From NCBI GenBank assembly GCA_001830835.1, contig MICJ01000003.1, positions 30,299 through 63,955 on the forward strand: a stretch of 33,657 nucleotides of DNA, read 5' to 3'. The notes under the pieces are model-generated. The model made no database searches. It was given only the letters and a program-made list of their open reading frames with translations, and was not told the origin of the DNA. The stretch is from Syntrophobacterales bacterium GWC2_56_13. GTDB lineage: Bacteria; Desulfobacterota; Syntrophia; Syntrophales; UBA5619. The position numbers and the translations under genes were made by a program. Shown here piece after piece: positions 8,531 through 11,277 of this stretch. Each line of letters opens with the position of its first letter. Position 1 is the first letter of the stretch.

Positions 8531-9404
8531 TTAAATGTCAGTGCTCTCAGGAGTTCTCGTCATGAGCTTCAGTGAATGATACATCTCATAAGTGAGATGA
8601 TCATTCCGGCAGGGAAGGAGGGAATTGTTCTGGAAAAGGGGCTTCTCAGCGATAGGGTAGGGCGAGGAAGCCACCGCTTCATCCCACAAATCCGTTCCCG
8701 GTATGGGAGAATATTCGGCAATAATTTGACGCGCCCCACAGGACCGGACAAAACGGACGCTCTCCCTTACCTCTTCCGCGGTTTGTCCGGGGAGACCGCA
8801 GAGAAGATATATCCCGATGTCTTGATCCCGATAACCGGCGCGCCTCAAACAGATGAGGGCTTCTGTAAATTCTTCATTGCAGACTTTGCCGCCAGTCATT
8901 ATCTGCCGGGCGGCGTCTGATGATTCCAAGCCAAAACGCAGAGTTTTAAAGCCCGCCTTAAATATGAGCGTGCTGAGCTCTGAAGAAATGTCACGCAGAT
9001 GAAGGCCGTTCGGACAGTGAAACTGAATCGGCAATTTCCTCCGGATGATCTCTTTCAGAAGCCGAATCGCCATATCCCGGGGATCAACAAAAAGTGCGTC
9101 GCCATAAATCGAGGTCATTGTTGTCAGGAAGGAAGATCATCTCATGGTTGAAGAGATCCTTCAGCAGAGCGGGAATAGATGCTTCCGCAGGGCCGGGCAA
9201 ACAGAAATCAGCCCCGGACCTTGATGCATGACGCGGACAGAGGGTGACATAATTTCCTCCCAGGACGACAGGTACGCCTGGAAACATCGTACGCACGATA
9301 GTGATGATGTCGAATACCGCCGGATACCAATATGTCATCATTAAATCATAGGCTGCAAAATCATAGGTCCAGGGATTGATGAGAAGTATTATTCTCCGCT
9401 TCAT
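8531..9404 (-). pseudogene. Decayed B12-binding / radical SAM protein, catalytic core deleted
   Basis: Two overlapping reading frames form one broken gene. The first (9404 down to 9084) begins M-K-R-R-I-I-L-L-I-N-P-W and continues with a cobalamin-binding-like segment (F-P-G-V-P-V-V-L-G-G-N-Y). It seems to lack residues normally found between A-A-Y-D-L and M-M-T-Y-W. The second (9118 down to 8531) resembles the radical SAM barrel after the cluster site: Y-G-D-A-L-F-V-D-P, L-R-F-G-L-E-S, L-L-C-G-L-P-G-Q and a C-terminal P-I-P-G-T. The CxxxCxxC motif for the 4Fe-4S cluster is missing, and the frames are out of register at about 9084-9118. At least one deletion, probably two, removed the catalytic core. 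No good Shine-Dalgarno precedes the first ATG. Two separate working proteins are unlikely. Confidence 0.75.
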
Positions 9405-9494
9405 AAATAAACCAATAGCACATATTCTATATTCCGACAATTTCTGAAGAAAAAATTATATATGGTAATGCATATAATAATATTACATTGTCCA

Positions 9495-9562
9495 TTATAC
9501 TGTTATTATTCAATAATCAAGATGCTTTGTAACTTTTTAGACATTATAATAATACAGTATAA
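9495..9562. repeat. Inverted repeat around ACAGTATAA
   Basis: The 16 bases at 9495-9510 (TTATACTGTTATTATT) are the reverse complement, with one base gained, of 9548-9562 (AATAATACAGTATAA). The arms are 37 bp apart. A further arm pair, GTCCATTAT (9490-9498) and ATAATGGAC (9643-9651), brackets the promoter region. These could be operator half-sites; in AT-rich DNA chance is a real alternative. Confidence 0.5.
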
Positions 9563-9569
9563 ATAATTC

Positions 9570-9596
9570 TTGACAAATCGTTATGAAGCGTATAAA
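9570..9596 (+). promoter_or_regulatory. Upstream promoter candidate for the MerR-cyclase gene
   Basis: A perfect TTGACA (9570-9575) is followed by TATAAA (9591-9596), but the spacer is only 15 bp. The palindromic motif ends just upstream of the -35 box. A short spacer would make it weak without an activator. Confidence 0.35.
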
Positions 9597-9678: not shown

Positions 9679-11277
9679 ATGGCAGAACTTGAAAGAACGA
9701 AAAACGGTTTGATCAGCAGCATCGATATCCTTGACAGAACCGGGCTTTCCCGAGCCACCTTGAACAATTATATCAAAATGGGAATAATTCCCCGTCCAAT
9801 CGTCCGAAAACCTGAGAAGGCTTCGATCAAGGCAAGACAGATCGGCTATTTTCCCGGCTCTGTATTGGACACTATAAATAAAATTATACAGTATAAATCA
9901 GAGGGGTATTCCATGGACGAGATATGCGATCACATGAGGTTGAAAGCAAATGATTCGACTGTAATTACTGATTCTGTAACCTATGATGCCGATGAACAAG
10001 GCAGAGATGACGGCCTGATACCGGACGAGGAACGCAGGACAGATCAGGAAACGAGCCAGGAAATGAGTGATATAATGATCGCTGTTAAAACGAATGAAGT
10101 GAAATTGACGATTAATGATCTCCAATGCCCTGCATATCTGATCAGTAACAATTTCGAAATTGATTGGATCAATACGGAGGCGGAGGAAACTATTTTTGGT
10201 CAAAACATACATTCGCTAACAATAGCGGAATCCAGGAATATATTCAGACTGTTTATCGGTATGGGTCTCATGCAGTCGGTCGAGTCCCGTCATGCGATCC
10301 TCGATTTCCACATGTCGCTGTTTAAGCAGAGATCTTCAAAAGAGGATCTGGAAAAACTCTTTCTGGGCATCACAAAGAGAGATGTCAAAATGCTGTCAGA
10401 CATCTATGATATTATAGATGTTACTTCCTCTCCGGCCCTTCCTGAGACATATCTGAACCTGAATTTCCACCAAGATTCTGAAATGGTTTATCGAGTGAAC
10501 AACATCAAATTTCGGGAAGGGATTTTATGTGTATATGTCCCGGTAAACAAGATGATGCAGGGAATTGTCGAGCTGCTGTCCAGAAGAGGTAGAATCATTC
10601 AGGATCTTCTCAAACAACGCATGCCGACACTGGTATCTTTCTCCGTTCTGGTTGCAGATCTTCAAGACTCGATCAGGATTTGTGCCGAACTCCCTCCGGA
10701 AGAATATTTCCAGCTGATCAATGAGATCTGGAAGTGCATGGAAGGTTCATTCAAAAAATATTATGGCACATATGGAAAACACACCGGTGACGGCATGGTC
10801 TACTACTTCCTCAAGGAGCGCGATTCCAATTATCTCATGAACGCCATTCTCTGTTCGCTTGAGTTGAGGGAAAGCATGAAAAATTTGAGTAATAAGTGGA
10901 AAATGACCAAGGGATGGTTTAACGATCTCTATTTGAACGTTGGAATCAACGAAGGACAGGAATATTTCGGAACGATTCCATCATCGCCGACAATCGAATT
11001 TACGGCACTTGGCGATTCGGTCAATTATGCGGGCCGATTATCTGACTTTGCCCGTTACGGTTCAATCTGGACGACAAAGAATCTTATGAACCGGTTAAGC
11101 GATGAGGAAAGAAAACAAATTTGCTACGGCATCCGAAAGAAGGAGCAGAACCGTGATTTCATGATTGAAAATATCTTTTCACGTGTGGTCGACCTTATGC
11201 CTCCGGACAGTCCCAAATACAGTAAATACATGGATATTGCAACCTTAGCCGTGACAGAAATCCACGACATCCGCTGA
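9679..11277 (+). CDS. MerR-type HTH / PAS-like / class III nucleotidyl cyclase fusion
   Basis: This 532-residue protein combines three regions. Residues about 11-83 resemble a MerR winged helix (D-R-T-G-L-S-R-A-T-L-N-N-Y, then Y-S-M-D-E-I). Residues about 139-310 include a PAS-like start (P-A-Y-L-I-S-N-N-F-E-I-D) and a region I cannot assign. Residues about 318-490 are a class III adenylate/guanylate cyclase domain: metal Asp327 in V-A-D-L, Lys367 and Asp371 in G-K-H-T-G-D-G, Thr442 in F-T-A-L-G-D, and the transition-state pair Asn449 and Arg453 in G-D-S-V-N-Y-A-G-R-L. All key residues are present, so it should be active; cAMP or cGMP as product is open. GGGGAGGG precedes the ATG. The gene stands alone and is richer in A/T codons than its neighbours. 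A palindrome, TTATACAGTATAA, lies inside the coding region at 9884-9896. Confidence 0.85.
   Translation: MAELERTKNGLISSIDILDRTGLSRATLNNYIKMGIIPRPIVRKPEKASIKARQIGYFPGSVLDTINKIIQYKSEGYSMDEICDHMRLKANDSTVITDSVTYDADEQGRDDGLIPDEERRTDQETSQEMSDIMIAVKTNEVKLTINDLQCPAYLISNNFEIDWINTEAEETIFGQNIHSLTIAESRNIFRLFIGMGLMQSVESRHAILDFHMSLFKQRSSKEDLEKLFLGITKRDVKMLSDIYDIIDVTSSPALPETYLNLNFHQDSEMVYRVNNIKFREGILCVYVPVNKMMQGIVELLSRRGRIIQDLLKQRMPTLVSFSVLVADLQDSIRICAELPPEEYFQLINEIWKCMEGSFKKYYGTYGKHTGDGMVYYFLKERDSNYLMNAILCSLELRESMKNLSNKWKMTKGWFNDLYLNVGINEGQEYFGTIPSSPTIEFTALGDSVNYAGRLSDFARYGSIWTTKNLMNRLSDEERKQICYGIRKKEQNRDFMIENIFSRVVDLMPPDSPKYSKYMDIATLAVTEIHDIR
9884..9896. promoter_or_regulatory. Perfect 13-bp palindrome, possible intragenic operator
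   Basis: TTATACAGTATAA is a perfect palindrome around a central A, inside the coding region just after the HTH. A 13-base stretch (9886-9898) is identical to 9552-9564 upstream of the promoter. Its role as a binding site for the encoded regulator is inference. Confidence 0.35.

Follow-up and report, generated by a model that had tools for sequence, protein, structure and literature searches.

In most bacterial cAMP circuits, the cyclase enzyme is separate from the DNA-binding receptor CRP. The two functions do meet in single proteins of Mycobacterium tuberculosis, in which the Mclx proteins (Rv0386, Rv1358, and Rv2488c) consist of a cyclase, an NB-ARC/AAA part, and a LuxR-type helix–turn–helix (HTH) domain, two of the three lacking some of the canonical catalytic residues (PMC4452763). 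An MmyB-like regulator with an MLTR_LBD-type domain has been crystallised with a fatty acid (PMC3406030; PDB 3pxp). For the fusion of a MerR-type HTH to a cyclase, we found no description in open-access full text, which covers part of the literature. Here, we outline a family of such proteins, which unite cyclase and DNA-binding part in one chain, unlike the split cyclase/CRP circuits.

The member studied here is encoded in a 33,657-nucleotide stretch of the genome of Syntrophobacterales bacterium GWC2_56_13 (contig MICJ01000003.1; order Syntrophales, phylum Desulfobacterota), analysed as a whole and hereafter called the window. Its gene is an intact open reading frame in the window's list of such frames, encodes 532 amino acids (9679–11277, + strand), and has full-length relatives that are 49–62% identical in the nearest group. 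An original prediction, made from the nucleotide sequence, described this gene as AT-rich and standing alone. The former is borne out by a GC content of 43.0% (vs 51.9% for the window), and the latter holds approximately: the gene's divergent neighbour is broken, and dtd, guaB, and dnaE follow downstream on the same strand. The broken neighbour, a B12-binding radical SAM gene that adjoins the HTH-cyclase gene at 8531–9440 (− strand), persists as two overlapping pieces in different frames, of 118 amino acids (B12-binding) and 195 amino acids (radical-SAM C-terminal), with the middle gone. Across many genomes of the order, the common arrangement is a divergent B12-binding radical SAM gene, the HTH-cyclase gene, dtd, a DUF1285 gene, guaB, and dnaE (the names guaB and dnaE being taken from the sequences, without a family search). 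In a relative without the HTH-cyclase gene (G012, locus L170), the radical SAM gene directly adjoins dtd-guaB-dnaE.

The three-part composition originally predicted—HTH, middle part, and cyclase in one protein—recurs in relatives that are 35–62% identical. The cyclase domain spans residues 314–532 (10618–11274, +), within which residues 321–477 match PF00211 (Guanylate_cyc) with E = 1.9e-10 and 41.1 bits against a curated cut-off of 21.9. In the PDB, CyaB is matched by sequence at E = 6e-9, and CyaB, CyaC, Cya2, and photoactivated cyclases are the nearest relatives of known structure. In an AlphaFold model built from a 34-member alignment (mean pLDDT 84.6), the cyclase part superimposes on CyaB with Z 22.4 (2.2 Å over 187 residues) and on CyaC with Z 21.8. 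All six catalytic residues that had been named beforehand are present and, in the family alignment, in register across the family: metal-binding Asp327 (10657–10659, +), purine-specifying Lys367 and metal-binding Asp371 of the KHTGD motif (10777–10791, +), and Thr442 at the class IIIb purine-specifying position together with the transition-state pair Asn449 and Arg453 (11002–11037, +). Lysine and threonine at the purine-specifying positions are the signature of class IIIb adenylyl cyclases. The K367/T442 pair therefore makes ATP the predicted substrate, and the window protein a predicted adenylyl cyclase of class IIIb-like type. In sAC-like cyclases, threonine at this position is described as predictive of bicarbonate regulation (PMC3383692).

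The MerR-type winged HTH occupies residues 11–92 (9709–9954, +), close to the extent first proposed (about 11–83), as judged from MerR_1 matches, fold, and family alignment. Taken alone, residues 1–99 of the window protein match MerR_1 with E = 0.005, which is under the Pfam cut-off, but MerR_1 is matched by 30 of the 35 family members (best 9.3e-9), and a family profile finds the PDB MerR entry 4ua1 (E = 3e-4). A separate model of the HTH is most like TnrA (Z 10.9, 81 residues, 2.6 Å), with GlnR, CadR, MtaN, and SoxR also matched (Z 9.7–10.9). The domain search that the original prediction had named as its own check thus recovers Guanylate_cyc above the cut-off and MerR across the family, though under the cut-off in the window protein by itself. 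Nine positions form an invariant core across the family (S14, S24, R25, T27, N30, Y31, I32, P40, and G56), and the recognition helix, SRATLNNY, is near-invariant. The linker that follows (residues 93–140; 9955–10098, +) is predicted to be disordered (pLDDT <50 for 91–139), and the AlphaFold model does not predict, directly after the HTH, the coiled-coil dimerisation helix of classical MerR. Such an antiparallel coiled-coil helix is not universal in the MerR family, GlnR/TnrA being cases in point. As no dimerisation helix is predicted, we use the label ‘MerR-type HTH’ and do not call the protein a classical MerR regulator; with residues 91–139 predicted to be disordered, the PAS-like and cyclase parts would have to provide dimerisation.

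Between linker and cyclase, the expected PAS-like middle appears in the model as a domain with extra helices (residues 141–308; 10099–10602, +). MLTR_LBD (PF17765, MmyB-like ligand-binding) is matched by 5 of 25 relatives (best 1.3e-8) and has no direct match in the window protein. A sequence profile of the middle domain found no relatives in the PDB, and in a fold search with the full model the match list was filled by cyclases. The domain is absent from the short forms of the family.

A survey of the order with the HTH profile found the family gene in 24 of 155 genomes, one copy each, and outside the order about 10 further genomes of the phylum carry it, giving a family of about 35 members. 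Two further weak HTH-profile matches in the order are other proteins and were not counted; the counts likewise leave out weak matches in G082, G129, and G489, which belong to other MerR-like proteins. By eye, the G082 protein (L047 1–1746, −) contains a pair of MerR-like HTH and TetR-like domain twice in one chain, and the G489 protein (L059 1414–2325, +) contains a single such pair. Searching 84,980 species genomes with the full protein, an approach limited to close relatives, returned three loci, all in metagenome-assembled genomes labelled ‘Proteobacteria’ or Deltaproteobacteria, and a plasmid search gave no match to the family gene. Besides full-length proteins, the family includes PAS-less short forms (320–403 amino acids), two PAS-only forms, and one short HTH protein without a recognisable cyclase. 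In L055 and L056 (about 280 amino acids), the HTH and PAS-like domain are kept and the cyclase is entirely lost; downstream of these two genes, on the same strand, lies a gene for a protein of 726–746 amino acids.

Palindromes had also been predicted at the promoter, and side-by-side comparison of upstream regions first revealed a conserved 13-bp palindromic operator with the consensus TTA(T/G)AC-W-GT(A/C)TAA. Allowing one mismatch or fewer, we find 66 matches to the pattern TTAKACWGTMTAA within the 320 bp upstream of the 35 family genes (mean of dinucleotide shuffles 0.13), with copies at 32 of the 35; as the pattern was derived from those very regions, a cleaner test is the genome-wide one described below. 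Most relatives share a layout of two copies: the first precedes a TTGACA box by about 20 bp, and the second overlies the −10 element, to which its right half GTATAA contributes the TATAA, with the TTGACA 15–17 bp upstream. The window retains much of this layout. Pattern scanning places one copy with one mismatch (TTAGACATTATAA) at 9537–9549 and another, O1, also with one mismatch (TAATACAGTATAA), at 9550–9562 (operator positions carry no strand); by the relatives' layout, O1 is just upstream of the −35 box of a predicted promoter, TTGACA-15 bp-TATAAA (9570–9596, +), which was read from the sequence by analogy with relatives and is omitted by a consensus promoter scan with a 16–18 bp spacer rule. 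Of O2, a half-site alone is left in the window, the right half GTATAA at the predicted −10. No operator was found within a 19–20 bp promoter spacer, where MerR operators lie: the sites here are upstream of −35 and over −10, and the spacer is 15–17 bp. With O2 over the −10 and O1 just upstream of the −35, the arrangement would fit autorepression by promoter occlusion, unlike MerR-mode activation within a long spacer. A perfect copy (TTATACAGTATAA), the sole exact one in the 2.6-Mb genome, lies inside the coding sequence (9884–9896), and several close relatives have near-copies at the matching place; this in-gene site carries less weight than those at the promoter, since conserved codons (I-x-x-Y-K) account for part of it. 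That the HTH binds the palindromes preceding its own gene is a prediction with strong comparative support.

Exact operator copies occur in 17 of the 24 gene-bearing genomes of the order, and all 24 copies sit at the family gene, whereas the 131 genomes without the gene yield 10 (Fisher p = 4e-11, kinship ignored). Relaxing the search to one mismatch yields 103 sites in 23 of the order's gene-bearing genomes, with 56 located at the family gene and 47 elsewhere; the latter are fewer than the 163 matches of a reversed control pattern, a rough yardstick because its base composition is equal but its dinucleotides differ. In the window's own genome, three of four such sites are at the HTH-cyclase gene. 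A regulon search detected no motif excess outside the family gene in this genome and 24 other family-bearing genomes, and a tblastn search found no remnants of the family gene near motif copies in gene-less genomes. With every exact copy in the gene-bearing genomes located at the family gene, the only target of the protein is most likely its own gene. A one-mismatch copy (TAATACAGTATAA) is located upstream of one gene in both G124 (L129 1536–1548) and G126 (L130 130–142), two genomes of the same genus that carry the family gene. The gene behind this site, which by eye we take to be DUF169-like, is the only candidate second target seen, and the sharing of the site may just reflect shared ancestry.

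The protein combines intact catalytic residues, an architecture conserved across many genera, and an operator confined to its own control region. In our preferred reading, which we consider probable, it is an autorepressed, soluble, one-component adenylyl cyclase with a MerR-type HTH, a PAS-like domain, and a class IIIb-like cyclase domain, acting as a dimer, in a family in which catalysis has repeatedly been lost. The HTH would bind the 13-bp palindromes, and occupation of O1 and O2 would block the gene's own promoter and keep the cyclase level low. The PAS-like domain may sense a ligand, possibly fatty-acid-like, that alters dimer geometry—a step suggested by weak MLTR_LBD similarity in a minority of relatives—and the geometry would set the activity of the cyclase, perhaps also the affinity for DNA. 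The resulting cAMP would act on CRP-type receptors, candidates for which are the eight cNMP-binding domain matches in the genome, which also encodes about eight or nine other cyclases. In several lineages, loss of the PAS-like domain and of catalysis would leave a DNA-binding autoregulator with a cyclase-like domain. Several observations weigh against this reading: O2 of the window is a half-site, no classical MerR dimerisation helix is predicted for the dimer that would read a 13-bp palindrome, the motif is absent upstream of two or three distant members, and conserved, catalytically dead members are hard to explain if cAMP is the sole output.

Two other readings reassign the palindromes. They could serve to regulate the divergent B12-binding radical SAM gene together with the cyclase gene from the shared intergenic region, as divergent adjacency in about 10 genomes of the order places the operators between the two genes. 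This is very improbable: of the order's 155 genomes, 128 have the radical SAM gene, most of them lacking the cyclase gene, and at none of 11 such cyclase-less loci is the motif found, while many carriers of the family gene have another neighbour and the copy in the window is broken; we rejected this neighbour as the main target. Similarly remote is the idea that another transcription factor binds the palindromes and controls the cyclase gene, the HTH having some other target. Binding by the HTH is indeed a prediction from sequence, which leaves room for this idea, but a separate factor with no exact copy elsewhere in the gene-bearing genomes would have to be dedicated to one gene in every lineage and location. 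Moreover, the motif also accompanies an HTH-only form (L018) and the pseudo-cyclase forms, and it is missing upstream of the distant L058, in which the recognition helix is changed to SRVTLHNY.

The third reading concerns the rank of the two activities: the protein may be first of all a transcription factor that responds to a nucleotide or ligand, and a cyclase second, its cyclase fold serving mainly as a dimerising sensor that binds ATP or cAMP and steers DNA binding, with catalysis optional. Of 23 members with both PAS-like and cyclase domains, 18 keep an intact catalytic set (one T442A counted as intact); of nine PAS-less short forms, none does (Fisher p = 7e-5, relatedness ignored). All nine PAS-less members and five PAS-bearing ones are thus catalytically broken while HTH and operators persist, which speaks for this reading, as does the reversal of conservation. 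Identity to the window protein is 62–82% for the cyclase and 45–68% for the HTH in nearly all intact members (about equal in L058), whereas in most degenerate members the HTH is the better conserved. Substitution rates point the same way: L013, whose sole catalytic change is D371E, has a dN/dS relative to L025 of 0.15 in the HTH and 0.22 in the rest, both far under 1 although one protein of the pair is catalytically dead. Two points count against it. Nearly all intact members conserve the cyclase best and keep every catalytic residue, a sign that catalysis is under selection in them, and no target was found beyond the protein's own gene for such a factor to control; we consider this reading unlikely. 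On the tree, the PAS trait changed at least six times and the catalytic trait at least eight times, some degenerate members sitting on long branches with uncertain placement, and independent pairs on well-supported branches show the same direction or no difference (four pairs, p = 0.125, too few for significance). In the reading that we prefer, the catalytic domain has repeatedly turned non-catalytic, and several lineages have lost the PAS-like domain as well. Conserved dead members imply a role of the family protein that is independent of catalysis.

Returning to the autorepressed cyclase that we favour, a stronger form of the idea would be a closed one-gene circuit: a cyclase whose HTH recognises its own gene alone, at the promoter and sometimes at an internal site, and that was several times converted to a conserved non-catalytic DNA-binding protein on loss of its sensor. 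We put this forward tentatively, as somewhat less probable than its opposite. If true, one family would hold the steps from a signal-making enzyme to a pure nucleotide- or DNA-binding regulator. In any case, the family offers natural intermediates of an enzyme domain becoming non-catalytic, tied to sensor-domain loss, and a binding sequence predicted by comparative genomics, which makes binding, autoregulation, and nucleotide effect directly testable. It also poses a puzzle, namely the job of a conserved, catalytically dead protein when its sole visible DNA target is its own gene.

The individual parts of the protein have familiar counterparts. Its catalytic fold (Z ~22) and residues, including the Lys/Thr pair, are those of class IIIb CyaC (Spirulina) and CyaB (Pseudomonas aeruginosa), but the matched catalytic-domain structures are without a DNA-binding domain. 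Like MerR-family regulators (closest fold TnrA/GlnR and CadR), it has a winged HTH with two further helices and palindromic sites; unlike them, it has no predicted coiled-coil helix, its sites lie outside a 19–20 bp spacer, and its partner is an enzyme domain. A PAS-like ligand-binding domain beside an HTH is shared with MltR/MmyB-like regulators (PDB 3pxp, PMC3406030), although these have an Xre-type HTH and no cyclase, and the middle of the window protein has no direct MLTR_LBD match. A further parallel is Mclx: both are soluble proteins that carry a class III cyclase together with a DNA-binding HTH on a single chain, and both include members without canonical catalytic residues. In Mclx, however, the HTH is LuxR-type and C-terminal to the cyclase, an arrangement that the window protein does not have, and the middle is an ATPase; in the window family, the HTH is MerR-type and N-terminal, the middle is PAS-like, and conserved private operators accompany the gene. 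DNA-binding cyclases are therefore known in principle (Mclx), and what we rate as new here is the MerR/PAS version with a private operator.
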